Origin: Paeniglutamicibacter quisquiliarum
GTDB taxonomy: Bacteria; Actinomycetota; Actinomycetes; Actinomycetales; Micrococcaceae
Assembly (NCBI RefSeq): GCF_019084045.1
Contig: NZ_JAHRED010000007.1
Span: 1 to 64,000, forward strand
Direction of reading: 5' to 3'
Length of the DNA: 64,000 nt
Shown in pieces: positions 42,585-61,985 of this stretch. The notes under the pieces were generated by a model. That model made no database searches, was not told the origin of the DNA, and was given only the letters and a program-made list of their open reading frames with translations. Within the stretch, counting starts at the first letter, position 1; each line of letters opens with the position of its first letter. The translations under genes were made by a program, and so were the position numbers.

Positions 42585-42592
42585 GGCAGTCT

Positions 42593-42641: not shown

Positions 42642-42687
42642 GGTGCCCCGGCGGCGGGTGCCGCCGCGGGGTGCGAGGGCCTGAACG

Positions 42688-45775: not shown

Positions 45776-47827
45776 TTAGTTGTCCTCCGTGATGATGATG
45801 TCTCCGTTGGCCGTGACGCGGCCCGACTGCCCCGCAAGCATGACTGTGGTCGCGTCCATTTGCTGGATGATGGCAGGTCCGGCCAAGGTGTTGCCGGGCT
45901 GGAGCTTGGTCCGGTCGTAAATGGTTGTCGATCTCTCCCCCGTGCCGGGCAGGTGGACGGTGCGGCGGCCGACGATGGCGGCGTCGGCAGGGCCCATGGT
46001 GCCCGCAACCCGGGCTGGCTGTGCCACACGGTCGAAGCCGCCTGTCACGGCCAGGCGCACCGTGACGATTTCCACGGTTTCCTGCTCCGAGCTGTGCCCG
46101 TACAGTTCCCGGTGCAGCGGGTGGAAGCGCTCGGCGATCAGTTCCAGGTCCTGCACTGACGTGCCGTCCAGGGGCACGCTGAGCTCGTAGCCCTGTCCGA
46201 GATAGCGGCAGTCGACGGTGACCGAAGCCTGCACGCTGCCGGGGGCTGCGCCGTCTTCGATGACCTGCCGGACCAGCTCGTCCCGGCGTTCGGCAAGCCA
46301 CCCGGAGATGGGCGGCAGTGCATCCGCGCCGAATGGGCGCAGCAGCGTCTGCGAGTCGTCGATGCGCAGGCCCGCGGCCAGCAGGCCGTCGGCGGAGTAG
46401 AGCCCCGGCTGGTGGGGAACTACGACGCTGGACAGTCCCAGGTGGCGCAGCAGCAGGCCGGCATGCAGCGGCCCGGCCCCGCCAAAAGGGAAGAGCGAGA
46501 ATTCGCGCGGATCCAGGCCGCGTTCGACGCTGACCTTGCGCACGGCCCGGACCATGTGGGCCATGGCGATGGCCAGGATGGCCTCCGCAGCCTCGATGAC
46601 ACCCATGCCCAGCTGGTCGCCGATGTCTCGCACGGCCTTTTCGGCCGCAGCGTAATCGAGCCTCAGGTCCCCGGCCAGCGCGCCGGATCCCAGCGTTCCC
46701 AGCACAACATGGGCGTCGGTAAGTGTTGCCGCGGTGCCGCCGCGGCCATAGCTTGCCGGCCCCGGGACGGCCTTGGCCGACTGCGGGCCCACGCGCAGTC
46801 GCTTGGTCCGGTCCACCCAGGCGATGCTGCCGCCGCCGGCGCCGATGGTGTGGATGTCCACCGTCGGAGCGATCAGCGTGTGGTCCTGGACTTCCTGCCT
46901 ACTCGTATAGGGGGCCTGCGAACCCCGAACCAGACAAACGTCGACGCTGGTTCCGCCCATGTCGAGGCTGATGACGTTGGGCAGCCCGTGCTCGGCGGCG
47001 CCGCGCAACAGACCGGAGACTCCGCCGGCGGGCCCGGAAAGAATCAGGCGGTGGGCTTGACCTGCAGCGCGCCCGGCCGGGACGCAGCCGCCGTTGGACT
47101 GCATGACCTGGAACGGTGCCAAGACCCCGCCCGAGGCCAGCGAGCCGGCGGCCCTTTCGAGATAATCCCCGACGACAGGTCGAAGGGCTGCGTTGATTAC
47201 CGTGGTGGCGGTGCGCGGGTATTCACGGAATTCTCGGGCCACCTGGCTCGAAATAGTCACGGGGGTGTGCGGGAAACGCTGTGCGAGGGCCGCCAGCAGC
47301 ATGTCCTCGTGGACGGGGTTCAAGTAGCTAAAGAGGAGGCTGACGGCGATGGCTTCCGGTGCCAGTGCCTCGATCTTCTCCAGCACGGCGTCGATGTCTG
47401 CCTGCTGCAGGGCGGTCACCACCGAGCCGTTGCTGGCAATGCGCTCATTGACTTCGAAACGCGCGTGCCGTTCGACCAGTTCGTTGGGGCGTTCCGGTTT
47501 CAGGCTGTAAACCTGCGGGCGACTTCCCTGGCGGTAGGCCATGACATCCCGAAAGCCGCGGGTGGTGATCAGTGCGACGCGCGCCAGGTTTCCGGTCAAG
47601 GTGGCATTGGTGGCCACGGTGGTGCCGTGGCAGACCAGTTTGACCTCGTCCAGGTCCATGCCCTGTGCAGCGAGTTCGGCAACGGCGTTGGTCAGACCTC
47701 GGGACGGGTCATCCGGTGTTGAGGCGGTCTTGGTGACCAGCGTGCGGCCGTCGTTGGCGTGGGCAATGGCGTCCGTGAATGTTCCGCCGGCGTCGATGCT
47801 GACGATCCATTGGGCGAGCGATGTCAT
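45776..47827 (-). CDS. hyuA: Hydantoinase A/oxoprolinase family protein
   Basis: About 683 aa. An ASKHA-type phosphate motif opens the protein (VSIDAGGTFTDAIAHANDGRT). LVCHGTTVATNATLTGNLARVALITTRGFRDVMAYRQG follows, then NVISLDMGGTSVDVCLVRGS near residue 290 and FPFGGAGPLHAGLLLRHLG near 465. It would phosphorylate or ATP-activate a cyclic amide or imide for hydrolysis with HyuB. AAAGGAAC precedes ATG 47827; the frame extending to 47959 is not supported. It is encoded behind an amino-acid-type permease. Confidence 0.9.
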   Translation of the reverse strand: MTSLAQWIVSIDAGGTFTDAIAHANDGRTLVTKTASTPDDPSRGLTNAVAELAAQGMDLDEVKLVCHGTTVATNATLTGNLARVALITTRGFRDVMAYRQGSRPQVYSLKPERPNELVERHARFEVNERIASNGSVVTALQQADIDAVLEKIEALAPEAIAVSLLFSYLNPVHEDMLLAALAQRFPHTPVTISSQVAREFREYPRTATTVINAALRPVVGDYLERAAGSLASGGVLAPFQVMQSNGGCVPAGRAAGQAHRLILSGPAGGVSGLLRGAAEHGLPNVISLDMGGTSVDVCLVRGSQAPYTSRQEVQDHTLIAPTVDIHTIGAGGGSIAWVDRTKRLRVGPQSAKAVPGPASYGRGGTAATLTDAHVVLGTLGSGALAGDLRLDYAAAEKAVRDIGDQLGMGVIEAAEAILAIAMAHMVRAVRKVSVERGLDPREFSLFPFGGAGPLHAGLLLRHLGLSSVVVPHQPGLYSADGLLAAGLRIDDSQTLLRPFGADALPPISGWLAERRDELVRQVIEDGAAPGSVQASVTVDCRYLGQGYELSVPLDGTSVQDLELIAERFHPLHRELYGHSSEQETVEIVTVRLAVTGGFDRVAQPARVAGTMGPADAAIVGRRTVHLPGTGERSTTIYDRTKLQPGNTLAGPAIIQQMDATTVMLAGQSGRVTANGDIIITEDN

Positions 47828-47882
47828 GGTGTTCCTTTGGTTGTGCGTGGAGCGGGGTGTGGCTGCTTGGGAGGCATGGACT

Positions 47883-49229
47883 TTAGTCGTCGGCGACAGG
47901 GAGTTCGGGCGGCACCTTGCGGAATCCGCGGGTGAGCACCGCCAGGTACACCATGCCAATGGCCAGCCAGATAAATCCGACGACGAAGGCGCTCATGGAG
48001 AGACTGGTCCAGAGCCAGAGGCAAAGGAAGACACCGATGGCCGGTGCCGCAAGGTATCTGGCCGTGTCCAGCCCAGAGCGGCACTTCTGGTCGAGGTAGT
48101 AGTGCTTGATGACGGCGATGTTCACGAGCGTAAAGGCGGAGAGCGCACCAAAGCTGATCAGTGAGGAGGCCAGGGTGAGGTCGATGACCAGCGCGAACAG
48201 GCCGATGGCGCCGACGACCAGGGTTGAGTAGACAGGGGTCTGGAACCTCGGATGCAATTGGCCAAAGACCCTTCGCGGTAGGACTCCGTCGCGGCCCATC
48301 GAGTAGAGGATGCGGGAGACGGTGGTCTGGGAGGCCAACACCGCCCCGAAGCATCCGGCGATGTAGGCGGCCGTGAAGAACGCCTCGAGGAATGCGCCTC
48401 CTGCGGCATGGGTGACGTCCAGCGCAGCGGAGTCAACGCTGGTGTAGGCGCTCCAGTCCGGGAATGCGAGGTTGGCGATCACCGAGATGACCACAAACAG
48501 CACGCCTCCGAGCAGGGTGACCAGGATGATTGCCTTGGGAATGACCTTCTTGGGATCGACGGTTTCTTCGGCCAGCGATGACACCGCGTCAAATCCAAGG
48601 AACGAGAGGCACAGGATGGCGGAGCCCGCGAAGATGGCGGTGGTTCCCGGCCCCATGCCGATCATCATGTCCACGATGGACGGCATGGGGTTGTTCGTGG
48701 CGGCACGGATGCCCATTACGCCAAACACCAACAGGAAAACGGTCTGGAAGACGAGCAAGAGGCTGCTGGCCTTGGACACCATCTTGATACCGGCGACATT
48801 CAGGGCCGTCACGATGACCAGCGACAATATGATCCATACCGGTTGCGAGACGGTGGGGAAGCTGGCCTGCATGTAGATGCCGATCACCAGGTACGTGATC
48901 ATCGGCATGAGGAGGTAGTCCAGCAACAGGGCCCAGCCGCCCAAGAACCCCACGTTCCCACCCAAGGTCTTTCGGGTGTACGTATATGCGGACCCCGCCA
49001 TCGGGAAGGCCTTGACCATGCGCGCGTAGCTGGCTGCCGTGAACAACATGGCAACGAGGGTCACCAGGTAGGAGGAAACGATGTGTCCCTCGGTGAGTTC
49101 GTTGACAATACCGTAGGTCGTGAAGACCGTCAGTGGCAGCATATAGGCCAGGCCGAACAGGACGGTGGCGGGCAGACCAAGCACCCGCTTGAGGCGAGGG
49201 CTCTTGGTCGTTTGGGAGACAGTGCTCAT
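47883..49229 (-). CDS. APC-family amino acid/amine permease
   Basis: About 448 aa and twelve membrane segments. The first reads VLGLPATVLFGLAYMLPLTVFTTYG, then FPMAGSAYTYTRKTLGGNVGFLGGWALLLDY and FLGFDAVSSLAEETVDPKKVIPKAIILVT, the pattern of the PuuP-like and related transporters for amino acids and polyamines. GGAG lies five bases before ATG 49229 (a GTG six bases earlier is unlikely). First gene of the hyuA-hyuB-FAD oxidase operon, so it should import the substrate. A 16-bp palindrome lies 28 bases upstream. Confidence 0.88.
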   Translation of the reverse strand: MSTVSQTTKSPRLKRVLGLPATVLFGLAYMLPLTVFTTYGIVNELTEGHIVSSYLVTLVAMLFTAASYARMVKAFPMAGSAYTYTRKTLGGNVGFLGGWALLLDYLLMPMITYLVIGIYMQASFPTVSQPVWIILSLVIVTALNVAGIKMVSKASSLLLVFQTVFLLVFGVMGIRAATNNPMPSIVDMMIGMGPGTTAIFAGSAILCLSFLGFDAVSSLAEETVDPKKVIPKAIILVTLLGGVLFVVISVIANLAFPDWSAYTSVDSAALDVTHAAGGAFLEAFFTAAYIAGCFGAVLASQTTVSRILYSMGRDGVLPRRVFGQLHPRFQTPVYSTLVVGAIGLFALVIDLTLASSLISFGALSAFTLVNIAVIKHYYLDQKCRSGLDTARYLAAPAIGVFLCLWLWTSLSMSAFVVGFIWLAIGMVYLAVLTRGFRKVPPELPVADD

Positions 49230-49256
49230 TTTCACTCCAAGGTGCGACTTGTGATG

Positions 49257-49272: not shown

Positions 49273-49303
49273 TCCAGTGTGGGGGCAGCCGCGGGATTCA
49301 GTC

Positions 49304-51130
49304 ATGCGTATTTATGCGTATGAATTTTTTCAATCTGTTAGTGTTCCTGCTGTGACTGGAAACCGACTGCCGCGCGCATCCCATGCCGAGTTCACCACCG
49401 ACCACCGTGGCCGCACGACGCTGCTTCGCGGGCCAGAACCTCCGGCCCTGCTGGCGTTGTATGCCAGGGGGTTCCTGCTCACCAATCGCTCGGAGATCCA
49501 GTTTGTTTACCGGGCCGAGGGCCTGCTGCAGTCGATCCGCATGGAACGACAGCGCACGCGCGGCGAGCAGCACGACCACGCGCTGGTCAGCGCCAATCCC
49601 CTGGTGCTGCCCCAGGGAGTCACCCCGCGGGAAATCGATGTGTTGACCCTCGTGGCCCTCGGGCTGCCGAATGCGGAAATCGCCGGCCGCCTGGGCACCA
49701 GCCCGCGGACCGTGACCACGCAGATAGAGCGGCTGCTGCACAAGCTCGAACAGCGCGGCCGCGGCGGGCTGGCGGCGATCGCGGTTGATGCCGGCCTGCT
49801 GGCACTCCCGGTTACCGGCGGCGTCGAGGGGGTGGCGCCGCTCGCCGCGGTCGGGCTGGAGCAATTCGCCGCCGCCCTGCGTACAGGCCGGGGCCCCGCC
49901 GCGGTACCTGACACCGCGCTGGCCAGCCGGCATCCCATCGTCATCGGCACACTGGCAGCGCTCACGGGCATCGCGGCCGACGACGGGGAAGAGATGGTGC
50001 GCGGTGCGGCCCTGGCCATCGAGGAGATCAACGCCAACGGGGGCGTGGGCGGCCGCCGCCTGGAACACTTCGTCGCGGGCGCCGACCTCTTCGACCCGGC
50101 AAGCGTCGCAGCGGCCATGGCCCAGCTGGTCGAGGCGCAGGTCGACGCCATCACCACGAACTACATCAGCGCGGAAAACCCCTTCCTGCTGGAGACCGCG
50201 GCCGACTACGGCCGGCCATTCTTGCACCTGGACACGTTCCAGCAGCACGTGGACCTGGTCGAAGCGCGCCCCGAGCGCTACTGGATGGTGTACCAAACCT
50301 GCCCGTCGGAAAAATACTACGCACTCGCCTTTCGGCGCTTCCTCGGCGAACTCGAGGCCTCGCGTCGCTACGACCCGGCCAACCGACGGATCGCGATTGT
50401 GGAAATGGACTCGGCCAGTGCCCGGATCGCTGGGGAGGGGTTCGACCGGGAACTGGCCGCCATCGGCTGGGGAGTTTCGGCCAGGTACGCGGCGCCGGTC
50501 CGCAACACCGACTGGCAGAAGATCGCGCGCGGGATCCGCGAGGCCGCTCCGGACGTCGTCCTGGTGGCCCACTACGTCCCGGATGAAATCGCTATCCTGC
50601 ACCGGCTGCTGGTCGATGGCGGATTCCGAGGGCTGGTTCACTACGTCTACGGGGCATCGATCCCGCGTTTCCGCGACGTGCTCGGGACACTGTCCGACGG
50701 CGCGATCTGGAGTTCGGTGACCAGCCGCATGGATTCGGACTCCGCAACCCGCTTCCACCGCAACTATGTGATGCGCTACCGGGCAGAGCCCGGCCCGTCA
50801 CAGGCGAGCTCGGCCTACGACCAGATCCAGTTGCTGGCCTGGAGCTGGGCCCGCAACGGCAGCACGGTCCCGCGCGGGACCTGCAAGGTACTGCGCGAGG
50901 ACGTTTACCACGGGCTCAACGGGATCTACTACTTCGGCGGGGCCGGGCAATCGCCGTTGAGCTACCCGGACGGTACCTCCGACCCGACCATCGGCCAGGT
51001 CCTGGTCACCTCGCAGATCCAGGGCGGCAAGTCGGTGGTACTCAGCCCGCCGCTCTTCGGGTCGATGGCCAGGCTCCAGCTGCCCGGCCATAAGGACCAG
51101 GCGCCGTGGGCCGGCCTAACTGCGGACTAG
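49304..51130 (+). CDS. LuxR-HTH regulator fused to a periplasmic-binding-protein-like sensor
   Basis: About 608 aa. Residues ~25-100 are an uncharacterised domain (EFTTDHRGRTTLLRGPEPPALLALYARGFLL). Residues ~102-150 are a LuxR/GerE helix-turn-helix (TPREIDVLTLVALGLPNAEIAGRLGTSPRTV). From ~210 to the end runs a type I periplasmic-binding-protein fold like the amide/urea/branched-chain amino-acid binders (IVIGTLAALTGIAADDGEEMV, NANGGVGGRRLEHFV, SEKYYALAFRRFL). There is no signal peptide or membrane segment, so ligand would be sensed in the cytosol, as AmiC-like proteins do. A paralogue is encoded at 57869. Start uncertain: ATG 49304 is chosen; 49256 would cover the operator, and GTG 49352 aligns best with the paralogue. 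Confidence 0.82.
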   Translation: MRIYAYEFFQSVSVPAVTGNRLPRASHAEFTTDHRGRTTLLRGPEPPALLALYARGFLLTNRSEIQFVYRAEGLLQSIRMERQRTRGEQHDHALVSANPLVLPQGVTPREIDVLTLVALGLPNAEIAGRLGTSPRTVTTQIERLLHKLEQRGRGGLAAIAVDAGLLALPVTGGVEGVAPLAAVGLEQFAAALRTGRGPAAVPDTALASRHPIVIGTLAALTGIAADDGEEMVRGAALAIEEINANGGVGGRRLEHFVAGADLFDPASVAAAMAQLVEAQVDAITTNYISAENPFLLETAADYGRPFLHLDTFQQHVDLVEARPERYWMVYQTCPSEKYYALAFRRFLGELEASRRYDPANRRIAIVEMDSASARIAGEGFDRELAAIGWGVSARYAAPVRNTDWQKIARGIREAAPDVVLVAHYVPDEIAILHRLLVDGGFRGLVHYVYGASIPRFRDVLGTLSDGAIWSSVTSRMDSDSATRFHRNYVMRYRAEPGPSQASSAYDQIQLLAWSWARNGSTVPRGTCKVLREDVYHGLNGIYYFGGAGQSPLSYPDGTSDPTIGQVLVTSQIQGGKSVVLSPPLFGSMARLQLPGHKDQAPWAGLTAD

Positions 51131-51867
51131 ACGATGCACTGGCCGCCGTCCACGGGAATGACAGCGCCGTTGACGAAGCTCGCCCCCGGGCCGGCCAGGA
51201 ACAGGCACACTCGTGCGACCTCCTCGGCCGTGCCGAGCCGGCGCATTGGGTGGGTTGCCAGCAAGTCCCCGTAGGCCTGTGCGTTGTCGACGATGGTGGT
51301 CATGGGAGTGTCAATGACGCCGGGGGCCACAACGTTGGTGCGGACCCCACGTGGCCCCCATTCCGCGGCCAGCTGCCGTCCCATCGACACGACGGCACCC
51401 TTGCTGGCGGCATATGCGGCACCGGGTTCGGCTTCGTCGCCAAGGGCGAAGGCGATCGAACTCAACAGCACCAAGCTTCCGGCACCGCGCTCAAGCATTG
51501 ACCGGCCCAGGACCCCGGCCGTCAGGAAGGTCCCGGTCGTGTTGATGTGCTGCACGCGGGCAAACAGCTCAAGGTCCAGTTCCTCGGTGGCGCTGGTTTG
51601 ATAGATGCCGGCGCAGTGGACCACCGCATCTGGGCCCTGCCCCCACGTCTCCTCGATCAGGGCCAGCGCCGATCGCAGCGATTCGCGGGACGTCACGTCA
51701 CACTCGGCGAAGACGGTGTTATTACGTCGCAGCAAAGCGTCGTTCGCGGGTGCGGTGAGGTCCAGCATGGCGACCCGGTAGTTGGCGGTCGCGGCCAGCC
51801 GGGCGGTGGCTGCGCCGATCCCCGACGCGGCCCCGGTAACGGCCAGCACAGGGAAATGCTCAGCCAC
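51127..51867 (-). CDS. SDR-family oxidoreductase
   Basis: A 246-aa SDR: LAVTGAASGIGAATARLAA near residue 8, VVHCAGIYQTSATEELDLE, serine in LVLLSSIAFALGDE, and YAASKGAVVSMGRQLAAEW. It closes with NGAVIPVDGGQCIV. It overlaps the end of the converging regulator gene by four bases. It is in the same direction as the SDR upstream at 52002 with a 134-base gap, so they may be co-transcribed. Confidence 0.85.
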   Translation of the reverse strand: MAEHFPVLAVTGAASGIGAATARLAATANYRVAMLDLTAPANDALLRRNNTVFAECDVTSRESLRSALALIEETWGQGPDAVVHCAGIYQTSATEELDLELFARVQHINTTGTFLTAGVLGRSMLERGAGSLVLLSSIAFALGDEAEPGAAYAASKGAVVSMGRQLAAEWGPRGVRTNVVAPGVIDTPMTTIVDNAQAYGDLLATHPMRRLGTAEEVARVCLFLAGPGASFVNGAVIPVDGGQCIV

Positions 51868-52001
51868 GCCCGGCCCCTGTTGAGCTCGGCGTTGCCGGCG
51901 TGTGTCGCCGCCGTGCTAGGACGTACCTCGGAGATGCTGTTTTGTGCATTGTGTCTTTCTTTCCCTGGCATTGAAGCTGAAGTCGAAGCCGGTCGCTCGA
52001 T

Positions 52002-52781
52002 CTAGCCGAAAGCAGCAGCGCCGTTGACCGGGATGTCCTGACCGCTGACGTAGCCGGCGGATTCACTGAGCAACCATGCCACGGTGGCTGCCACGTCCGC
52101 TCCTGTCCCGTGCCGCCGCATCGGTATGGCGGAACTGACGCGCTCCAGCTGCTCCGCAACTTCTACGCCCCGGAGGGATGCCTGGAGCGCGGCCTCCTCT
52201 CTGTGCATGCCGGTGAGCATGTAACCGGGGGAAACCGTGTTGACGGTAGTCCCGTACGGTCCTTCCTCCACGGCGAGGCTTCGGGTGAGGGCGGCGAGTG
52301 CTCCCTTGGACATTGCGTAGGCCACGCCGTGCGATTGGGGGTGGTTCGCAAACAGAGACCCCATGTTGACGATCCGGCCGCGCCCGCTAAGGCGCAAGCT
52401 GGGCAGCGAGGCACGGCAAAGCCGTGCCGGTGCGATCATGTTGACCGCCAGCACCTGCTCGAGGTCTTCGTCGGAGGTGTGCTCTAAAAGCATTCCGGGG
52501 CCACCAACGCCGGCGTTGTTGACCAGCGCGTCCAAGCCGCCAAGGAGTTCGATGGCACCGTCAACCAATGTCCGGTCGGCGTGGGGCTCGGTGAGGTCAA
52601 GCTGCATGGTGCGGATTCTGCCTCCGCGCTCGCCGCCGAGCTTTGCGATCCCGGCGGAATTGTCGCAGGCCAAGACCAGATGCCCCTGGTCCGCGAGACC
52701 CAGGGCGATGTCCCGGCCTAGGCCGCCTGCCGCACCGGTCACCAGGGCCCGCATCGGGGCATGGCGGAGGAGCCTTGTCAT
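52002..52781 (-). CDS. SDR-family oxidoreductase
   Basis: About 259 aa: ALVTGAAGGLGRDIALGLAD near residue 12, NNAGVGGPGMLLEHTSDED, serine in VNMGSLFANHPQSHG, YAMSKGALAALTRSLAVEEG and a C-terminal YVSGQDIPVNGAAAFG. ATG 52781 is chosen; ATG 52754 directly before the cofactor motif is possible and the frame is open to 52844. It is divergent from the ABC transporter operon, and the shared control region holds two operator-like palindromes. Confidence 0.82.
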   Translation of the reverse strand: MTRLLRHAPMRALVTGAAGGLGRDIALGLADQGHLVLACDNSAGIAKLGGERGGRIRTMQLDLTEPHADRTLVDGAIELLGGLDALVNNAGVGGPGMLLEHTSDEDLEQVLAVNMIAPARLCRASLPSLRLSGRGRIVNMGSLFANHPQSHGVAYAMSKGALAALTRSLAVEEGPYGTTVNTVSPGYMLTGMHREEAALQASLRGVEVAEQLERVSSAIPMRRHGTGADVAATVAWLLSESAGYVSGQDIPVNGAAAFG

Positions 52782-52920
52782 GCTCGGAATCCGCGCACTG
52801 TGGCGACTCCGCCGCGGTAGAAAATTCTGTGGCTGCGTTGGCACCCGGAACCATGGCTCATTGGTTTTACCTTCCGATATTTGCGTCTTCCCATCCTTGA
52901 GTTCCCAGCGGCAAGTTACA

Positions 52921-52936
52921 TGCGTCGAATGACGTA
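52921..52936. promoter_or_regulatory. Candidate operator of the amide regulon, site 2
   Basis: TGCGTCGAATGACGTA, an imperfect 16-bp palindrome. It matches the inverted site at 52991 at 14 of 16 positions when read on the other strand, and its centre lies 70 bases from that of the 52991 site. Confidence 0.55.
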
Positions 52937-52990
52937 CGGGGATGGAACCTAAAATTCCAATCAGCCCCGCACTTCGTATTTTGCCGTTCG

Positions 52991-53006
52991 TACGTCATAT
53001 GACGCA
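52991..53006. promoter_or_regulatory. Candidate operator of the amide regulon, site 3
   Basis: TACGTCATATGACGCA reads TGCGTCATATGACGTA on the other strand: a 16-bp palindrome with one mismatched outer pair, 98 bases before the substrate-binding lipoprotein start. Confidence 0.6.
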
Positions 53007-53103
53007 TGTGCTGTAAGTTCTGCTCTGGTGAGATGTCTACTCAGAACAAGCGGGCACCAGCCGGGGAAGCCGCCGGGTATCCGTCGCAGACATTGGAGGA
53101 ACA

Positions 53104-54096
53104 ATGAAATCTCGTAAGTTTGCACGACTCGTGTCGCTCGGTGCCGTGGCCTCACTCGTCCTTGCCGGTTGCACCTCCGGCACCGCGTCCGAAGGGGACT
53201 CCTCCGGAGAGCCTGACAAGGGCGCGGTTGCGATGAGTTTTGCCGGGTTGGACATCCAGATCTGGGTCGATGAACTCGAATACATGAAACCCATCGTTGA
53301 AGCTGCCGGCTACGAATTGGTCAGCGACGATCCACAGTGGAACATCCAAAGCCAGGTTTCGAGCTGGCAGTCATGGATCCAGCGCGGCGATATCAAGGCG
53401 ATCATGGGCTATCCCGTGCAGTCGGACTCCATGGTCCCGGTCACCACCGAGGCGAATGCCGCAAACATCCCCGTCGTCGGGTATGCGACCGAATGGGAAG
53501 GCATCGAGGCAGCGTTGGTCATCGACAACTACAACGACGGCCTGACCTTGGGCGAGGAAGCCGGCAAGTGGATCGTGGAGAAGTACGGAGACGCCGAGGT
53601 CCCCGTTGGGTTCTTCAGCTACTACGAAACCGATCTGGGTATTGAGCGATCCAACGGCATCAAGGACGGGCTGAAGAAGGCCGGGGCGAAAGTTAAGATT
53701 TCGGATATGCCCTCGCTGACCATCGAGGACGGACTGGAAAACACAAAGAACCAGCTGTCAGCGAATCCCAACACCAAGGTTTGGCTTTCAACCGGTTCCG
53801 ACCAGTTGATCGGTTCCTACCGTGCGCTCATGTCTCACGGTGTGGATCCCAAAGATCCGGGCTACCTGCTCGGTGCCCTAGATGCCACAGATGAATCACT
53901 GGACCTAATCAAGGAAAAGGACAGCATCTGGCGGCTCGGGTTCATCCTGCCGGCCAAGGAACTGGCTGAGAAGAACGCGCAGCTGCTCATCGAGGCGGCC
54001 GAGGGAACTCTCAAGGGAAACATAGAGATTTCCTCCACCCGGGTAACCCCGGAAAACGCCGATTCCTTCCGCAGCGACCGCAAGAGCGGAAGCTGA
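53104..54096 (+). CDS. Sugar-type ABC transporter substrate-binding lipoprotein
   Basis: A 330-aa protein with a lipobox LAGC near residue 22. The mature part is of the ribose/LacI-like binding fold: FAGLDIQIWVDELEYMKPIVEAAGYEL, IMGYPVQSDSMVPVTTEANAANIPVVGYATEWEG and DNYNDGLTLGEEAGKWIVEKYG. The ligand is not evident; family members bind sugars, polyols and other small polar molecules. First gene of an operon with ATPase, permease, HDAC-like hydrolase and regulator. AGGA precedes the ATG. Confidence 0.87.
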   Translation: MKSRKFARLVSLGAVASLVLAGCTSGTASEGDSSGEPDKGAVAMSFAGLDIQIWVDELEYMKPIVEAAGYELVSDDPQWNIQSQVSSWQSWIQRGDIKAIMGYPVQSDSMVPVTTEANAANIPVVGYATEWEGIEAALVIDNYNDGLTLGEEAGKWIVEKYGDAEVPVGFFSYYETDLGIERSNGIKDGLKKAGAKVKISDMPSLTIEDGLENTKNQLSANPNTKVWLSTGSDQLIGSYRALMSHGVDPKDPGYLLGALDATDESLDLIKEKDSIWRLGFILPAKELAEKNAQLLIEAAEGTLKGNIEISSTRVTPENADSFRSDRKSGS

Positions 54097-54099
54097 TCC

Positions 54100-55611
54100 A
54101 TGATGCATTCCACACAGTCCCTGCCGGGGGCGGGTGAAGGCGATATGCGATTGCGGTTGGAAAACCTGTCCGTTGAATTCGGTGCCACCCGGGCCTTGGA
54201 CGGGGTCACGCTCTCGGTGGCGGCCGGTGAAGTTGTCGGCCTGCTTGGCCACAACGGAGCGGGAAAATCCACGCTGTTCAACGTGCTCTCCGGGGTCTAT
54301 GCCGCATCGAGCGGGGATTTCACCGTGGATGGTGTCCCGGCACCGGGGAAATTGACACCGCAAGAAGCCGCAGGAATGGGCATCACGGTGATCCATCAGG
54401 AGCCGGCGCTAGCGCCGAACCTGAGCATTCTGGACAACCTGTTCTTGGGACAAGGGCTTCGGCCCAGCGTCGGCCAGCGCGAGCAAGCGCGCCGGGCACT
54501 GGCCGAGGTCGGATCCGACCTCGATCCGGGTCTCATGGTAGATACGCTCTCGCTGGGTGAGCGTCAGCTTGTTGACTTGGCGCGCGGGTTCCTGGCCGGC
54601 GGCATGAAAATGCTGTTGCTCGATGAACCCACCGCCGCGCTCGGCCGTGCCGAAACCGAATCATTGCATGCCTTGATCAGGCAGCTGGCAGCGCGTGGGG
54701 TGACGGTCATCTACGTCTCCCACAGGCTGCCCGACATCCTGGACGTTTGCGAACGCATCTTGGTTCTCAGGTCGGGGTGCCTGGTGGTGGACGGGACCGC
54801 CGAGTCATTCACGGGCAGGACGCTGGCCCAGGCCCTTGCCCCGGGCATGGGCGACGACAAGTTCGTTCCAGCCCGAGTGCAAACGAGCGCCGGGCTTCTT
54901 CGGTCCGACGGGGTCAGCGTCGCCGCTGGCGAAGTGGTGGGCCTCTTCGGGATGGCCGCCGGGGAGCAATTCAGCTTTCTTGCCGGACTCTTCGGCTTGG
55001 ACGGACATGGCCGCTTTAGCTGGAACGACCGGGACGTCGACATCGCCTCGCCGGGCGCCGCGGTGCGTTGGGGCATCCATCTGGTGCCGGCCGACCGTGA
55101 AAACGATGGTCTAGTCTCCGGTGCCTCAGCACTGGACACGGTGTTCCTCCCGTGGTTCAGCCAGCTGCCCGGCCGCGGATGGTGGGTTGGCCCAGCGGTG
55201 GGGGAAAACACATACGCCGAAGCCCGGAAAAAGCTCAATATCCTCGGCCCCGGCTCCGACGCGCCAATCGACGAGTTCAGCGGCGGCAACCGGCAAAAGC
55301 ATCTGCTGTCGCGCTGGATGTTTCCGCGCCAACCGCGGGTCCTCCTGCTGGCACAGCCGACCCAGGGTGTCGACGTTGGCGCCAAGCAGGACATCGCCAC
55401 CGCCGTCCGCGAGCTCGCCGCCCAAGGTGTGGCGGTGTTGGTCGCCTCCGCCGAATCTGATGAGATCGCCCAGCTCTGCGACCGTTCCTACGTCATGTAC
55501 GGGGGTTCGCGGGCGGAAGTCCCCCGCGGTCCCGAATTCAGCGGGGATCTCGTTTCCACGTTGCTCCACCTATCAGATGCAGAACGACCCATGGAAGGGG
55601 TCTCCCGGTGA
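54100..55611 (+). CDS. Sugar-type ABC transporter ATPase (two domains)
   Basis: A 503-aa tandem ABC protein. Domain 1: Walker A GHNGAGKST near residue 50, signature LSLGERQLVDLAR and Walker B MKMLLLDEPTAALGRA. Domain 2 lacks a normal Walker A (GLFGMAAGEQFS) but keeps a signature-like FSGGNRQKHLLSRW and VLLLAQPTQGVDVGAKQ, the usual asymmetric layout of ribose-type importers. The start MMHSTQ has a possible alternative ATG further in. It overlaps the permease gene by four bases. Confidence 0.9.
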   Translation: MMHSTQSLPGAGEGDMRLRLENLSVEFGATRALDGVTLSVAAGEVVGLLGHNGAGKSTLFNVLSGVYAASSGDFTVDGVPAPGKLTPQEAAGMGITVIHQEPALAPNLSILDNLFLGQGLRPSVGQREQARRALAEVGSDLDPGLMVDTLSLGERQLVDLARGFLAGGMKMLLLDEPTAALGRAETESLHALIRQLAARGVTVIYVSHRLPDILDVCERILVLRSGCLVVDGTAESFTGRTLAQALAPGMGDDKFVPARVQTSAGLLRSDGVSVAAGEVVGLFGMAAGEQFSFLAGLFGLDGHGRFSWNDRDVDIASPGAAVRWGIHLVPADRENDGLVSGASALDTVFLPWFSQLPGRGWWVGPAVGENTYAEARKKLNILGPGSDAPIDEFSGGNRQKHLLSRWMFPRQPRVLLLAQPTQGVDVGAKQDIATAVRELAAQGVAVLVASAESDEIAQLCDRSYVMYGGSRAEVPRGPEFSGDLVSTLLHLSDAERPMEGVSR

Positions 55612-56693
55612 AACTATCCTCGGTCAATCTCAAGTCCTTCTTGGCCAAGAACGGGATTTTCTTTGCCCTCGTTCTCCTGGTCGTGTTCTTTACGATCCTC
55701 AACCCGCGCTTCATGAGCACCGGTAACGCACTGAACGTGCTGCTACAGGTCGCCGAACTCGGCATCGTAGTCCTGCCCTTGGCCCTGTTGATGATATCCG
55801 GTTCGGTGGATCTGTCCGTTGGTTCCATAGCGTCTGCCTCGGCGGTCAATTCGGCGCTGGTCATGAGCGCCACCGGGTCAACGACTCTGGGCATCATCGC
55901 GGGCCTGGTCTTTGGAGTGGCAGCAGGTGCCCTCAATGGCTTCCTCGTGGCATACCTCGGTCTGAACCCCATCGTGGTGACTTTGGGTTTCCTGAGCGTC
56001 TGGGGCGGTTACGCGATGATGGTGACGGGAGGGCGCACAGTGACCAGGCGCGAATTGCCGGAGGAGTTCCAGGAATTCGGCACCGCCGCCGTCGGTCCCT
56101 TCCCGGTTCGATTGTTGTTGCTCTTGCTAGTGGTTGCCGGTGTTTGGTACGTGTTGAACAGGCACCGGGTGGGACGCGAGACTTACGCCATTGGTGGCAG
56201 TGAGCGTGCGGCGCGATTGATGGGCGTGAATGTGCGCCGCGTCCGGTTCGGGCTGTTCGCGGCCACCGGCCTTGCGTCCGCCTTGGCCGGAATCATGTTG
56301 GGGGCCAAAGTCCAGTCTGTGAGTCCCGCTGTGGGCTTGAACCTCGAAATGAATGCATTGACCGTTGCCTTACTTGGCGGTGTGGCATTTGCCGGCGGCG
56401 TGGGGCGCGTCGGCGGGGTTCTGGCCGGCTTGTTGTTCTTCGGTGTCATGCGCAACGGCCTGGTCTTTTTGCAGGCCTCCCCCTTCCTCCAAACGATCAT
56501 CGTGGGCCTGACCTTGGTGGTGGCAGTGGCACTGGACGAATCTATCCAAAAGATCGTCAAGCAATCTTGGGCAACACGCGGCAAAGCCGTCTTGGAATCG
56601 AGTATCAAGGCAAATGGCGACCCCGGCACCTTGGTGGAGGAAGGCACGACCGAGGCGGGGGAACGCCAGCGTTTGGGCGTCGGCAAACACTAG
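55608..56693 (+). CDS. Sugar-type ABC transporter permease (RbsC-like)
   Basis: A 361-aa BPD_transp_2 permease. FVLLVVFFTILNPRFMSTGNALNVLLQV-like N-terminus, then LMISGSVDLSVGSIASASAVNSA and GALNGFLVAYLGLNPIVVTLGFLSVWGG, all diagnostic of the ribose/galactose importer group. The EAA-like loop reads YAIGGSERAARLMGVNVRRVR. A ~45-residue hydrophilic C-terminal tail is unusual. It starts inside the ATPase gene (ATGA-type overlap, GTG start). Confidence 0.9.
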   Translation: MKLSSVNLKSFLAKNGIFFALVLLVVFFTILNPRFMSTGNALNVLLQVAELGIVVLPLALLMISGSVDLSVGSIASASAVNSALVMSATGSTTLGIIAGLVFGVAAGALNGFLVAYLGLNPIVVTLGFLSVWGGYAMMVTGGRTVTRRELPEEFQEFGTAAVGPFPVRLLLLLLVVAGVWYVLNRHRVGRETYAIGGSERAARLMGVNVRRVRFGLFAATGLASALAGIMLGAKVQSVSPAVGLNLEMNALTVALLGGVAFAGGVGRVGGVLAGLLFFGVMRNGLVFLQASPFLQTIIVGLTLVVAVALDESIQKIVKQSWATRGKAVLESSIKANGDPGTLVEEGTTEAGERQRLGVGKH

Positions 56694-56762
56694 TCCCCGC
56701 CAAAACCCATCGGGTTGCACGGCCCGAGACACACCAAAACACGCGACGAAAGGCACGCAATC

Positions 56763-57872
56763 ATGAGCACCGGATGGATCTGGCACGAGGTCTTCAATTG
56801 GCACAACACCGGCAACGGATCCGGCTTCTTCGGACCCGGGGGATTTATACAGCCTCATGTGGCCTTCGACTCGCCCGACACAAAGGGTCGCTTTGCGGCC
56901 TTGGTGAAGGTCAGTGAATTCGACAAGAAAATGGTTGCACTGGACACGTCCCCGGCAACGGACGATGAGATCCTGGCGGTTCACACTCACGGGTACCTGC
57001 AGCGGCTTGAAGACATGAACGAAACAGGCGGGGATGCCGGGGAAAACGCAGATTTCGGTCCGCAGGGAATCGCGATTGCCAAGCTTTCGGCCGGTGCCGC
57101 CATCGGAGCAGTGCGGGCCGTGCTGCGCGGCGAGGTGGACAACGCCTACGCATTGGTGCGTCCAGCAGGGCACCATGCTGAGGCCGACCGTGGCCGCGGT
57201 TTCTGCCTGTTCGCCAACACCTCGATCGCCGCACGTGTCGCCTTGGACGAATTCGAGCTCAAGCGGGTGGCGATCGTCGACTGGGACGTGCACCACGGCA
57301 ACGGAACGCAGAGCGTGTTTTGGAACGACCCGTCCGTCCTCACGATTTCCCTGCACCAAGACCGGTTGTACCCTGCGGACTCCGGCATGCGCTCCGAGAG
57401 CGGCGGGCCAGGCGCCGAAGGCACCGCGATCAACATCCCGTTGCCCGCGGGCACGGGAGACGGAGGCTATCTCGATGCCCTGGACCGCGTCGTGGTTCCA
57501 GCCTTGGAACGATTCCGGCCCGAACTCATCATTATCGGCAGCGGTTTTGACGCGTCTGCCACGGACCCGCTCGGCCGGATGGTGGTCACCAGTGCCGGAT
57601 TCCGATCCATGTCCCAGCGGATGATCGACGCCGCTTCCGAACATTGTGCAGGTCGCATCGCGTTCATCCACGAAGGCGGTTACTCGGCGCACTACGTCCC
57701 GTTCTGCGGCATGGCAGTGCTTGAGGAACTGACCGGCCTGGATTCTGGGGTCAAAGATCCCTACATGGCATTTTTTGCCGACTACCCGCAGCTGCAATTG
57801 GAACCGTGGCAGAAGGAAGCCGTGGACTTGGCCAGCGAACTCGTCCACCATGTGCCGGACCACCGCCAATGA
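56763..57872 (+). CDS. HDAC-family amidohydrolase (class II, acetylpolyamine-type)
   Basis: A 369-aa zinc amidohydrolase of the arginase/deacetylase fold. The catalytic His-His pair is in RPAGHHAEADRGRGFCLF near residue 140, zinc ligands are in VDWDVHHGNGTQ and GSGFDASATDPLGR, and the loop YSAHYVPFCG carries the late catalytic tyrosine region. Bacterial members deacetylate acetylpolyamines or other N-acyl amines. The N-terminal TGWIWHEVFNWHNTGNG is typical of a bacterial class II subgroup. It follows the importer and overlaps the regulator gene (ATGA), so it should act on the imported compound. ATG 56763 has AAAGG upstream. Confidence 0.88.
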   Translation: MSTGWIWHEVFNWHNTGNGSGFFGPGGFIQPHVAFDSPDTKGRFAALVKVSEFDKKMVALDTSPATDDEILAVHTHGYLQRLEDMNETGGDAGENADFGPQGIAIAKLSAGAAIGAVRAVLRGEVDNAYALVRPAGHHAEADRGRGFCLFANTSIAARVALDEFELKRVAIVDWDVHHGNGTQSVFWNDPSVLTISLHQDRLYPADSGMRSESGGPGAEGTAINIPLPAGTGDGGYLDALDRVVVPALERFRPELIIIGSGFDASATDPLGRMVVTSAGFRSMSQRMIDAASEHCAGRIAFIHEGGYSAHYVPFCGMAVLEELTGLDSGVKDPYMAFFADYPQLQLEPWQKEAVDLASELVHHVPDHRQ

Positions 57873-59608
57873 CCCGTGTGATCGAGTTCCTCACGGACCA
57901 CCGTGGCCGAATTGAATCGATCCACGGCGGTCCGCCACCCCCGGAATTGGTGTCCTACGCCCGGGGCTTCCTGCTGCTGAACCGCCACCGGGTCCAGTTC
58001 CTCTACCGGTCCGCCGAACCATGGCTGACCGTCGTGCTGGAAAGGGCACGTCGGCGCGGCGAGCAGCACGATCGTGCGCTGATCAGGGCCGTTCCATCAG
58101 AACTGCCACAGGGCATCACTCGGCGCGAAATCGAGGTCCTGACCTTGTTGTCGCTCGGACTGTCCAACCCGGAGATCGGGGAGCGGCTCGGAACCAGCCG
58201 CCGGACTGTGTCCACCCAGGTGGAGCGGCTGCTGCACAAGCTCGGCCAGGTGAGTAGGGCTGGGCTGGCATCGCTCGTCGTTGACAGCCACCTGCTTGCT
58301 TTGCCGATCCCGGGTGGCGTTGATGGCGTGGCTCATATCTCGGTCGTGGGTGTCGAACGATTTGCTGGCATGGTCGATGAGGTTCCCGCGCGTCTTCCCT
58401 TAGGCCCGAAGACAGTCGACGGACCACGCCCGATCCTGGTTGGCACCCTGGCGTCCCTGACCGGCCAGGCCAACGACGAGGGAGAAGAATTGGTCCGCGG
58501 CGCTGCACTGGCAGTCGAGGAGATCAATTCCCACGGCGGGGTGGCGGGCCGGACTCTTGAACACCTCGTTGCTGACGCGGACTTGTACGACCCCGATGCA
58601 GTTCGGGCCGCCATGCAGCGACTCATCGATGCAGGCGTCGACGCCATTACAACACACTATTCGAGCGCCGAGAATCCCTTCCTGCTCGAGATGGCCGCCG
58701 AATACGGCAGGCCGTTTCTTCATGTCGACACCTTTGAGCGTCATGTGGACCTAGTCCGGAGTAATCCCCGTCGCTACGGAACAGTGTTCCAGACGTGCCC
58801 GTCAGAGAAGTATTACGCCATGGCGTTTGTGCGCTTCCTGAGAGATCTCGGGAAGCTGCGGAGCTACCTGCCAAGGCAACGCCGGATGGCGTTGGTGGAG
58901 ATGGATACCCCGAGTGCGCATATCGGCGGAAACGGATTCGAGCCCGCAGTCGCCGAGGCAGGCTGGAGCATTGTCAGCCGCGAAAGTGCTCCCTTCCGGC
59001 AATCGGACTGGGAGGAAGTGGCCCGGCATCTGGTGGAGTCCCGCGCCGAAGTCATTCTCGTGGCACACTTCATCACCGACGAAATTGCGGAGCTGCAGAG
59101 ACAACTCCATGCCGCGAAGTTCACGGGCTTGGTCTACTACGTCTACGCTGCATCGAGCCCCCGCTTTGTGGAGCAGCTGGGGGATCTTGCGAATGGGGTC
59201 GTGTGGAGTTCCGTGACCAACCGAACGGATTCGGCCGTCGCACGGGCGTTTCAGCGAAACTATGCGGTCCGCTACGGCGTGGAACCGGGGCCGGCGCAAT
59301 CCAGTTCAGCCTACGACCAGGTCCAGCTGTTGGCTACCTCGTGGCGCCAAAACGGAGGCACGGACAGCGCCGGAGTGTGCTCTGCCCTACGCGAGACCCT
59401 CTACCGAGGGCTCAACGGAACCTACTATCTGGGAGAGGACGGCCAGGCGCCATTGAGCTACCCTGATGGCACAATCGATCCGACGATTGGCATGCCGCTT
59501 TTAACCTGCCAGATCCAATCGGGTGGACCAGTGGTCCTTAGCCCCGCACCATTCGGGTCCATGCATCTCTTGCAGATTCCGGGAATGAACCTCGCCGAGG
59601 AAAGCTAA
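57869..59608 (+). CDS. LuxR-HTH regulator fused to a periplasmic-binding-protein-like sensor, paralogue 2
   Basis: A 579-aa protein matching the regulator at 49304 over its whole length. Residues 1-78 form the uncharacterised N-terminal domain (FLTDHRGRIESIHGG, ELVSYARGFLLLNRHRVQFLY), ~79-126 the helix-turn-helix (RREIEVLTLLSLGLSNPEIGERLGTSRRTV) and ~190-570 the ligand-binding fold (ILVGTLASLTGQANDEGEELV, NSHGGVAGRTLEHLV, SSAYDQVQLLATSW). There is no export signal. It is translationally coupled to the HDAC-like gene. The PBP part would be the cytosolic ligand sensor; the HTH the DNA-binding output. Confidence 0.88.
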   Translation: MTRVIEFLTDHRGRIESIHGGPPPPELVSYARGFLLLNRHRVQFLYRSAEPWLTVVLERARRRGEQHDRALIRAVPSELPQGITRREIEVLTLLSLGLSNPEIGERLGTSRRTVSTQVERLLHKLGQVSRAGLASLVVDSHLLALPIPGGVDGVAHISVVGVERFAGMVDEVPARLPLGPKTVDGPRPILVGTLASLTGQANDEGEELVRGAALAVEEINSHGGVAGRTLEHLVADADLYDPDAVRAAMQRLIDAGVDAITTHYSSAENPFLLEMAAEYGRPFLHVDTFERHVDLVRSNPRRYGTVFQTCPSEKYYAMAFVRFLRDLGKLRSYLPRQRRMALVEMDTPSAHIGGNGFEPAVAEAGWSIVSRESAPFRQSDWEEVARHLVESRAEVILVAHFITDEIAELQRQLHAAKFTGLVYYVYAASSPRFVEQLGDLANGVVWSSVTNRTDSAVARAFQRNYAVRYGVEPGPAQSSSAYDQVQLLATSWRQNGGTDSAGVCSALRETLYRGLNGTYYLGEDGQAPLSYPDGTIDPTIGMPLLTCQIQSGGPVVLSPAPFGSMHLLQIPGMNLAEES

Positions 59609-59910: not shown

Positions 59911-61068
59911 CTACGCCTTCACAAGATTAGGCAGTAAGAATTCGGCGTAATCGACAACCTTTCTAGGCGCTAAGCAGGGGTTACCTTCTGCCAGATGCAG
60001 TACGCGGTTGTCCAGATCCATGACCACAGACATGACCGTCGACCACTGCGCCGCAGGATCCGATCGGACATCGGGGTGGCAGCAAATGGAACCCGGGGCG
60101 TCTGTGTGATCCTGCAGGGCGTGATCCAGTACAGCGATAGTGACCTTTTGTGTGTTGATGCCGACCAGCTCGCGCAACCGGGACAGTCGCACGTAGGAAT
60201 CGGACATGGCCACGGGAGCTAGGTCGAAACCGTCCCGCGTCGAATCCAAGAAGTGGTTGGTGTGGAAGGTCTTTCCATGTTTGGCAATCTGGACGTTGAT
60301 GTTGCGTGCGTCCCCCGGTCCCGTCTCAACGTTCAGGATCGCCCCGTCCGCGGCTCCCAGCATGTAGTTTCCGGAAGAGGCCCTGGGGTGAGAGGCCAGT
60401 AATTCGACCGCGTCATAGACACGTTTACAATCTGCCAGCGCCCGCAGCAAGACATGAAAAGGGACGCCCGGGGTTGATCCGTCAACGCTTGTCACAAGCG
60501 TGTTTACTGCCATGCCGATGCCGTGCTCGTTCATCACCGTTTTGGCCAGCAACCCGGCCTCCACGATGGTGACGTAGTTCGGTCCGTCCTCGCGTTCAAC
60601 CTCCAGCAGGATCACCGAATCCAAGCCGTGCACCAGCCAATCCCAATTCTGGCCAATCAATGTGTGTCCCAGTGCCGTGTGCGTCGGGGCTATCGCAAAG
60701 GAAGAACATTCCCCGACCCCACGCAGTGGATTTGCCGATCCCGTGGCCATCCAGTGCGCGGAGACCAAAGCCTGCCAGAGGATCTCGGTGCGACAATTCA
60801 TCGCCAGGATGTCTCCGAACGGCAGGTTCGCGCCCTTGGCGATCCCGCGCATTTCGTCCCAGATATCTGGGAAGAAGCGTTGGATGGATTCAGCGTACCC
60901 TTCGGCGTGGCTGACGGCGTCTTCCCAAGTCACGCCCTTGCTGGCGAAGGAGCGCTCGTAGCCGTCGCGGGCATGGTGCACCTGTGTGCGGGCCAATGAT
61001 CCGTATTGTTCACCGCGTTCAATCGGCCCGCCACTGACTCTGATGCGCGGGTAGCCTGCAGTTTTCAT
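59911..61068 (-). CDS. C45-family Ntn hydrolase (acyl-transferase/amidohydrolase type)
   Basis: A 385-aa protein of the isopenicillin N acyltransferase-like C45 family. The nucleophile cysteine, exposed by autocleavage in relatives, is in GVGECSSFAIAPT near residue 120. The preceding NCRTEILW and the following GHTLIGQNWDW, EAGLLAKTVMNEHGIGMAVNTLV and GNYMLGAADGAILNVE are the family's landmarks. It would hydrolyse or transfer an acyl group on an amide. Its start overlaps the end of the deacetylase-fold gene by four bases, so both are made together. Confidence 0.83.
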   Translation of the reverse strand: MKTAGYPRIRVSGGPIERGEQYGSLARTQVHHARDGYERSFASKGVTWEDAVSHAEGYAESIQRFFPDIWDEMRGIAKGANLPFGDILAMNCRTEILWQALVSAHWMATGSANPLRGVGECSSFAIAPTHTALGHTLIGQNWDWLVHGLDSVILLEVEREDGPNYVTIVEAGLLAKTVMNEHGIGMAVNTLVTSVDGSTPGVPFHVLLRALADCKRVYDAVELLASHPRASSGNYMLGAADGAILNVETGPGDARNINVQIAKHGKTFHTNHFLDSTRDGFDLAPVAMSDSYVRLSRLRELVGINTQKVTIAVLDHALQDHTDAPGSICCHPDVRSDPAAQWSTVMSVVMDLDNRVLHLAEGNPCLAPRKVVDYAEFLLPNLVKA

Positions 61069-61985
61069 GCCCGGCCCGTCCGTCCTGCCAGAGCGCCTCG
61101 TGCGACCCCCAAGAGTCGTTCGTCTTTATGTTCCGGGATCAAATTGGCGGGCAATGACGTGGGGGCCTGGGCAGCGGACAGCGTCCCGGTCGGAGAGTCT
61201 TCATCCAGTAGTTCGGCGGTTTGCCGCACCGTGCCGATCCAGGCGCCAGCTCCTTTGAGTCCCACGATGATCTTTTCGAGCATGGCCAGGCGCGAGGGTC
61301 GCCCGGATATCATGGGGTGCAAAGTCAGCATGACGTGTCCGCCCAGGGCTGCAATGCCGTCGATCTCCGGCTGCCACACCTCTAGGACCTCGCGGGTGGA
61401 GCGAATGGTCTTTTCCCAGGTGTCATTGGCGAACCAGAAATGCGCGGCGTCGTCCAGTATCCAGGACACGGGGACCTCAATGAGGTCGTGGCTCTCGAAA
61501 CGGTAAGGGCGAATGTCGTTGAGCAGGTTGGAACTGTATTTGAAGCCCGCTTCCTGCAAGAGGTCAAGGGTCTGGTCCGTGAATTCCCACGAGGGGGATC
61601 GGTATCCCGTTATCTCCGCACCCAGGTCCCGCAATACGGCCAGCCCATCATACAATTCCGCGCGTTCTGCCTCGGGACTCAGTGTTGTGGGGTTGGTGTG
61701 TGAGTGTCCATGGTGGGCGACCTCGTGGCCCCGGGCCAGGATTGCTCTTACGGAGTCGGGGTGGCGCAGGGCATCCTTGCCGCAGATGAAGAAGGTTGCC
61801 TTCACGTCGTGCTTAGCCAGCAGATCCAAGATCAAGGGAACCCCCACGCGCGGACCGTAGGCTCCCTGCGAAAGCACTCCGGGACGGTTGGCATTCTCGG
61901 GGTTCTCTCCGATCCAAACCTCTTCGGCATCAAAATCAAAGGTAATGCTTGCACCGAAATCCTTGTCCTGCGGCCACAAAGCCAT
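61065..61985 (-). CDS. Polysaccharide-deacetylase-fold hydrolase (imidase/PuuE-like)
   Basis: A 306-aa NodB-homology protein. The metal-binding Asp pair is in ASITFDFDAEEVW near residue 13 and the zinc histidines in HEVAHHGHSHTNPTTL near 93. TGYRSPSWEFT and HVMLTLHPMISGRPSRL are the later motifs. It lacks a signal peptide, so it is cytosolic and not a wall deacetylase; cytosolic members include cyclic imide hydrolases and PuuE-type allantoinases. It is the first gene of a two-gene operon; a candidate operator lies 94 bases upstream. Confidence 0.83.
   Translation of the reverse strand: MALWPQDKDFGASITFDFDAEEVWIGENPENANRPGVLSQGAYGPRVGVPLILDLLAKHDVKATFFICGKDALRHPDSVRAILARGHEVAHHGHSHTNPTTLSPEAERAELYDGLAVLRDLGAEITGYRSPSWEFTDQTLDLLQEAGFKYSSNLLNDIRPYRFESHDLIEVPVSWILDDAAHFWFANDTWEKTIRSTREVLEVWQPEIDGIAALGGHVMLTLHPMISGRPSRLAMLEKIIVGLKGAGAWIGTVRQTAELLDEDSPTGTLSAAQAPTSLPANLIPEHKDERLLGVARGALAGRTGRA

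Follow-up and report, generated by a model that had tools for sequence, protein, structure and literature searches.

The 64,000-nucleotide stretch of DNA from the soil bacterium Paeniglutamicibacter quisquiliarum analysed here (positions 1 to 64,000 of contig NZ_JAHRED010000007.1, referred to as the window) carries two regulator genes, REG1 and REG2, whose products join a GerE/LuxR-type helix-turn-helix (HTH) to a complete type I periplasmic binding protein (PBP) domain in a single chain. The PBP fold binds nutrients and is usually located outside the cell. REG1 and REG2 are probably cytosolic one-component regulators that sense an amide, a lactam or a cyclic imide and control the genes for its catabolism and uptake. 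A 16-bp inverted repeat of 7-2-7 layout, TNCGTCAWWTGACGNA, lies in gaps of the surrounding gene cluster and is the likely operator, which the fusion proteins would bind. The evidence also leans slightly towards a distinct, unnamed family, in which a transporter-type PBP was captured once by a PAS-like/LuxR-HTH regulator, has its ligand in common with an exported paralogue, reads a single 7-2-7 operator in different actinobacterial families and moves together with gene clusters that open lactams or imides, on plasmids as well.

Architecture of the two regulators

Both reading frames are open over the coordinates at which a sequence-only reading of this DNA had placed two full-length paralogues, and the products are 59% identical (336 of 569 columns). 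REG1 (49304-51130, forward strand) encodes 608 residues and REG2 (57869-59608, forward strand) 579. In each, an N-terminal domain of about 80 residues precedes an HTH of the LuxR/NarL type (roughly 49622-49777 in REG1 and 58115-58276 in REG2), followed by the type I PBP domain (roughly 49934-51049 and 58430-59584); the N-terminal domain of REG2, perhaps PAS-like, spans about 57869-58105. This three-part architecture, also proposed in the sequence-only reading, is borne out by Pfam: GerE scores 42.0 bits in REG1 and 42.9 in REG2 (cut-off 23.5), Peripla_BP_6 scores 92.7 and 136 bits (cut-off 31.7) over profile positions 1-302 and 1-329 of 343, and Peripla_BP_5 scores 44.1 and 57.6 bits (cut-off 27). 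The recognition helices of the two copies are near-identical (TVTTQ and TVSTQ). The same order of parts is found in 16 proteins from the 14 loci with intact fusions (the window, L001, L002, L013, L014, L036-L041 and L059-L061), and two of the deposited members carry the label ABC transporter substrate-binding protein.

Pfam recognises only separate domains in these proteins. It gives no match to an autoinducer-binding or receiver domain before the HTH of either regulator, and none to a LacI-type HTH, GerE standing in its stead. Among the NCBIfam matches listed, none to a full-length family reaches its cut-off (24 of 24 for P0001, the best 25 of 31 for P0002), in keeping with the earlier view that this is not a described family. 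Literature searches on the fusion and its surroundings, with subscription papers mostly outside their scope, met no description. The parts are known, and it is their combination, together with its operator, that appears to be unnamed.

The proteins had further been read as cytosolic. A hydropathy scan, of which a signal predictor was not part, agrees with this: neither REG1 nor REG2 has a membrane span or a hydrophobic N-terminal segment, and the highest 19-residue values (1.81 in REG1, 1.52 in REG2) are located at or just past the end of the HTH. The true start of REG1 may be GTG 49352 and not ATG 49304, because the sequence common to its relatives starts near 49373 and a repeat resembling the operator arms occupies 49303-49322. 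This repeat, CATGCGTATTTATGCGTATG, is a weak, arms-only candidate for a variant operator. The proposed ATG falls within it (window 49304-49352).

Structure prediction, which the sequence-only reading had suggested, succeeded for one part of the protein. Residues 1-151 of REG2 are predicted to form a ββ-α-βββ domain ahead of the HTH, with a mean predicted local distance difference test score (pLDDT) of 84.2, while the full-length AlphaFold2 model, built from five sequences, was poor (pLDDT 54.6) and was kept out of fold searches. The best Protein Data Bank matches of the N-terminal and HTH model in Foldseek are weak ones to VqmA chains (best E 4e-6; template modelling (TM) score by query length 0.35-0.44). 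The HTH alone is close to those of DosR and NarL (TM by target length 0.75-0.81). The N-terminal domain, whose sequence is poorly conserved across 13 fused proteins, is perhaps a reduced PAS-like domain that might serve in dimerisation.

A candidate 7-2-7 operator

The palindrome was first spotted on visual reading of the gaps at five loci, one of them the window, and was expressed as a first, strict pattern, TRCGTCAWWTGACGYA, and a looser one, TNCGTCAWWTGACGNA. With at most one mismatch to TRCGTCAWWTGACGYA, the window's genome (4.44 Mb) holds three matches, all of them in gaps of the cluster. Two share the divergent gap between an SDR oxidoreductase gene and a binding-protein gene: TGCGTCGAATGACGTA at 52921-52936 on the SDR side (one mismatch, score 19.6) and TACGTCATATGACGCA at 52991-53006 on the binding-protein side (score 26.1), the genome's only match without mismatch. 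The third, TGGGTCAAATGACGTA at 62079-62094 (one mismatch, score 20.3), lies upstream of a polysaccharide-deacetylase-like gene. The reversed pattern, searched as a control at the same tolerance, has no match in the window's genome and one in 28 genomes or records.

The scores come from a matrix trained on 11 sites of L002, L036, L038, L014, L059, L060 and L061, with the window and L001 excluded. Its top three scores in the window (26.1, 20.3 and 19.6) are those of the same three sites, followed by 12.5, and 20 random 64-kb sequences of the window's first-order composition gave maxima of 8.5-16.2. All four sites of L002 and L036 match TRCGTCAWWTGACGYA without mismatch. Once the pattern had been fixed, it was found with one mismatch in the 94-bp divergent gap of plasmid pYJND-2, and as TCCGTCAAATGACGGA, with two mismatches and perfect 7-bp arms, in the gaps between the regulator and a PBP paralogue in three genomes of another family (L059-L061). 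Further sites precede the polysaccharide-deacetylase-like gene in L059 and L060; in L061 a weaker one lies inside the longest open reading frame (ORF).

Exact matches to the looser pattern are present in 8 of the 14 loci and, once each, in 2 of 13 same-genus genomes that have no regulator. Five same-family genomes contain zero sites within one mismatch of TRCGTCAWWTGACGYA. One strict match each was also seen in two same-genus genomes without the fusion (G001:C85:19899 and G002:C1:1986557). Weaker candidates are TCGGTCATCTGACCGA, ahead of a C-N hydrolase gene in L039 and L040 (perfect 7-bp arms, the same GTCA/TGAC core, score 12.8), and a two-mismatch site at the start of the polysaccharide-deacetylase-like gene in L037 (score 14.1). 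On the Agrobacterium plasmid, the inverted repeat CATACGCATTAACGCGTATG (L013:9756-9775) stands before a C-N hydrolase gene and has the operator's outer arms and spacing with a different core. A pattern of arms only proved unspecific, with one or two matches in 4 of 12 same-genus genomes lacking the regulator, and was rejected. The 7-2-7 spacing equals that of NarL; sites for NarL and DosR are palindromes of the 7-2-7 or WW-centred kind.

The binding-protein domain and its probable ligand

The closest solved relative of the PBP domain is 3h5l, which aligns over nearly the entire domain (E 3.2e-41 for REG1, 4.2e-43 for REG2). The sequence-only reading had called this part AmiC/UrtA-like, a likeness that is not supported as a specific one, 3h5l being closer: the AmiC alignment is local only (E 0.0016 and 0.0003). 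Five residues expected from the alignment to face the pocket, H285, T288, Y316, Y426 and S429, are conserved in no fewer than 15 of the 16 regulators and in all five unfused PBPs of the neighbouring kind (L038, L059-L061 and L029). Among the other 14 unfused PBPs, Y316 and Y426 are present in all 14 and T288 in 11.

In an alignment with 4n0q, Tyr426 takes the position of a Glu of leucine-binding protein. That Glu binds the amine of the ligand in leucine-binding proteins, and because Tyr426 occupies its place, the ligand of REG1 and REG2 is unlikely to be an α-amino acid. An amide, a lactam or a cyclic imide is the class suggested instead, because such compounds fit the enzymes of the cluster.

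Distribution and origin of the fusion

Counting genomes, another step that the sequence-only reading had suggested, shows the architecture to be rare: it occurs in 5 of 295 genomes of the family (7-row profile), in other actinobacterial families and on two plasmids. At the level of the class, 11 of 394 genomes match, five with the fusion (judged from which part of the profile they match) and six with unfused PBPs only; in the phylum, 7 of 396 match (13-row profile), four with the fusion and three without. Two of 15 genomes of the genus have the fusion, and both carry both copies. Both copies are retained in Arthrobacter sp. C2. The window's own genome is included in every genome count. The profile searches scored the best three or four candidates per genome with differing E-value limits and draws, so that the counts are not additive. 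A scan of genome contigs found two loci only, and a search of viral contigs returned no relative.

The intact plasmid copies are those of Agrobacterium pAt14-818c_b and Paenarthrobacter pYJND-2. Altogether 169 plasmid records match, five of which cover at least 80% of the query. Three of these five are from Paracoccus pantotrophus, where the gene is in pieces; they stand outside the tree and the 14 loci. The broken copies on Paracoccus pantotrophus plasmids (L015:8001-9415 and L016:5001-6369) adjoin HyuA/B and other catabolic genes. Allorhizobium (L017) has a weaker, unannotated plasmid match.

The 16 fused domains come out together in a 35-domain PBP tree, with support 100/99 and in 100% of 200 bootstrap trees, a topology that fits a single origin of the fusion. 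The tree was built from 36 proteins matching the PBP profile, of which 35 exceeded 300 profile positions (L047 was dropped); the PBP of plasmid pAMI5 (L064) has no match to the profile at E 1e-10 and stands outside it. It was drawn with midpoint rooting and no outgroup, has long branches at L034, L037, L013 and L046, and includes some rows of odd composition. Within the group, REG1 clusters with the genes of L002 and L036 (support 100/98), two loci that have a single copy, in the position of REG2.

Gene cluster and conserved neighbourhoods

The two copies had been described as bracketing a catabolic cluster, which holds for part of it: they flank some of the cluster genes, and others lie outside the pair. 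Between REG1 and REG2 are found two SDR oxidoreductases on the reverse strand (51127-51867 and 52002-52844, the latter being the first gene leftwards of the operator pair), an ABC transporter of the Rbs/Ara type and, on the forward strand (56763-57872), a histone-deacetylase-like amidohydrolase. Among the solved relatives of this amidohydrolase are proteins called propanil hydrolase and dimethoate hydrolase. The transporter genes, all on the forward strand, encode a sugar-type substrate-binding protein (Peripla_BP_4; 53104-54096), an ATPase (54100-55611) and a permease (55608-56693), the best NCBIfam matches of the last two being AraG/RbsA-like and AraH/RbsC-like, under their cut-offs. After REG2 follow, on the reverse strand, a C45 family autoproteolytic acyltransferase/hydrolase (59911-61068) and a polysaccharide-deacetylase-like hydrolase of the PuuE/NodB superfamily (61065-61985), a possible ring-opening imidase. 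Before REG1, also on the reverse strand, stand an amino-acid/amine permease of the APC family (47883-49235) and a HyuA-like amidohydrolase (45776-47959), for which the best NCBIfam match is caprolactamase subunit alpha, under its cut-off. Beside the cluster, window 38893-44100 encodes a formiminotransferase-cyclodeaminase-like protein, a PHP-domain protein with a weak likeness to CehA/McbA metallohydrolases (under the cut-off) and an FAD oxidoreductase, which may share the same catabolism.

Comparable neighbourhoods accompany the fusion elsewhere; where a locus has no annotation, its genes are ORFs picked mechanically. All 14 loci have at least one of a polysaccharide-deacetylase-like gene, HyuA/B or a nitrilase-type C-N hydrolase, and the first of these is present in 11 of the 14, missing from L039, L040 and L041. 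An unfused PBP of the same subfamily lies within the cluster in L038, L059, L060 and L061; in all of these but L038 it is divergent to the regulator. The unfused PBPs of these four loci start in the twin-arginine manner, as read by eye, and ABC ATPase genes were detected by BLAST in L038, L060 and L061 only. The type of transporter varies, from Rbs/Ara in the window (53104-56693) and its nearest relatives to branched-chain in L038 and L059-L061. The regulator, SDR, C45 and polysaccharide-deacetylase-like genes are constant while the transporter type changes, perhaps through a swap of the transporter.

Proposed mechanism and alternatives

In the proposed mechanism, the ligand, an amide, a lactam, a cyclic imide or one of their metabolites, whether imported or of intracellular origin, would enter through the transporter or the permease of the cluster and bind the C-terminal cytosolic PBP clamshell. 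Closure of the clamshell would be passed through the linker to the LuxR/NarL-type HTH and alter the grip of an HTH dimer on the 7-2-7 sites. This dimer would read TNCGTCAWWTGACGNA ahead of the uptake and hydrolase genes, and REG1 and REG2 probably share this operator. The effect on transcription is more likely to be activation than repression. The two copies might form heterodimers or respond to two ligands, as the sequence-only reading had put forward.

A LacI-like logic, in which the fusion is a repressor released from its operator by the ligand, is rather unlikely. LacI-type PBP regulators do act by ligand release, and the site abuts the longest ORF of the regulator in L059 (site 4724, ORF start 4739) and L061 (both 7210); however, the window's sites lie about 77-98 bp before ORF starts, NarL/LuxR HTH proteins are mostly activators, and the two sites that flank the divergent pair in the window, L001, L002 and L036 form an arrangement common for activators. 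It is possible, if doubtful, that the copies are not a sensor pair and that one of them (REG1, for instance) has drifted towards a different role or ligand and left a single copy in control of the cluster. The grouping of the single-copy L002 and L036 genes with REG1 despite their location in REG2's place would fit such drift, as would the weak arms-only repeat that alone precedes REG1. Against it, Arthrobacter sp. C2 has kept both copies and the recognition helices are nearly the same; one clear operator type was seen in the window's gaps, no systematic search for others having been made.

That the fusion binds the operator is inferred, and the sites could in principle belong to another regulator of these clusters, with the fusion binding elsewhere. 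The loci were selected for the fusion, so that finding it next to the sites does not count as independent proof, and a site is present in 2 of 13 same-genus genomes that lack it. This explanation is nevertheless improbable: sites are found in the gaps adjoining the fusion gene in L014, L059, L060 and L061, a weaker two-mismatch site (score 13.7) precedes it in L038, and the 7-2-7 spacing suits a NarL-type HTH. That misassembly or chance joined an ABC binding-protein gene to its neighbour, as the transport labels of two deposited members might suggest, is scarcely credible: 16 proteins from 14 loci have the three parts in the same order and form one group.

Several observations weigh against the interpretation of REG1 and REG2 as amide, lactam or imide sensors acting through this operator. 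With up to three mismatches allowed, matches are not clearly enriched: the window has four matches, a number reached by 8 of 100 shuffles, and its genome has 48 as compared to 38 for the reversed pattern. Five of the 14 loci (L013, L037, L039, L040 and L041) have no site above the null maximum, and the null was drawn from the window's composition only. Seven of the nine passing loci trained the matrix, the two held out (the window and L001) being close relatives. Of 12 same-genus genomes that lack the regulator, 3 contain four sites between them within one mismatch of TRCGTCAWWTGACGYA, and in two fusion-bearing genomes (G595 and G467) such a site lies outside the cluster. All loci having been selected for the fusion, the hydrolase counts also stand without a background frequency near other genes. 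With regard to the ligand, H285 and S429 are present in just 7 of the 14 other unfused PBPs, and the regulator and the divergent PBP are not sister sequences, which leaves a common ligand as a matter of inference. Given the poor full-length model, the usable structure prediction is that of the N-terminal and HTH part, and pocket and relay are putative.

The operator, the divergent PBP paralogues and the plasmid copies are new beyond the sequence-only reading. If REG1 and REG2 are ligand-sensing regulators, they add to LacI-type regulators and AmiC a further possible use of the binding-protein fold for sensing inside the cell. An apparently unnamed family, with two members recorded as transport proteins, gains a testable operator and a list of targets. 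This offers a handle on the catabolism of amide, lactam or imide compounds, for which the sensors might also serve as biosensor parts.

Comparison with known systems

Regulators of the LacI/GalR family, and XylR with its AraC HTH, resemble REG1 and REG2 in that a cytosolic type I PBP fold senses the ligand on a one-component DNA-binding regulator. In contrast to LacI/GalR, the HTH of REG1 and REG2 is of the GerE/LuxR type, with an additional N-terminal domain before it and a Peripla_BP_6-type PBP after it; membership in LacI/GalR was rejected, as no LacI HTH is matched and GerE takes its place. The AmiC/AmiR system of Pseudomonas (1pea) likewise uses a cytosolic PBP fold to sense amides. AmiC works via a separate RNA-binding partner, whereas the PBP of REG1 and REG2 is part of the DNA-binding chain. 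AmiC membership was rejected as well, the match being local and no AmiR-type antiterminator having been matched among the eight neighbours and six window proteins scanned.

The putative branched-chain amino acid binding protein 3h5l, the closest solved relative of the PBP domain, is a 419-residue chain without the HTH part. A transport role for REG1 and REG2 as substrate-binding proteins was rejected: their N-terminus is the ββ-α-βββ/HTH part, with no hydrophobic segment in the hydropathy scan. VqmA, EL222, NarL and DosR have the HTH fold in common with REG1 and REG2, preceded by PAS in VqmA, and differ from them in lacking a PBP domain.

Amide catabolism offers two further comparisons. DmfR of plasmid pAMI2 is described as a LuxR-family activator of the DMFase genes, at an amidase locus and with the amide present (PMC4543880). 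Its LuxR-type HTH is a feature of REG1 and REG2 too. The LuxR-type gene adjoining dmfA1, taken as DmfR by its position, encodes 344 residues with a C-terminal GerE as the only Pfam domain and no PBP, and a link between the fusion and DmfR was rejected on this basis. On Aminobacter p1 and Paracoccus aminophilus pAMI5, as in the fusion, a PBP is associated with the regulators of an amide locus, its gene adjoining theirs; the Aminobacter PBP belongs to the same subfamily, and that of pAMI5 is of the Peripla_BP_5 kind. Unlike in the fusion, PBP, kinase and response regulator are three separate genes. These PBP genes (L055:2956-4173 in Aminobacter and L064:6103-7323 on pAMI5) sit beside the kinase and response regulator near DMFase-like genes. 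In Aminobacter, a related unfused PBP also lies next to a DMFase-like gene. The kinase is labelled an ATP-binding protein in Aminobacter and a sensor histidine kinase on pAMI5, and the Aminobacter PBP beside it starts without a visible signal peptide. The wiring of PBP, kinase and response regulator as three proteins may be the same sensing logic that REG1 and REG2 would combine in one chain.

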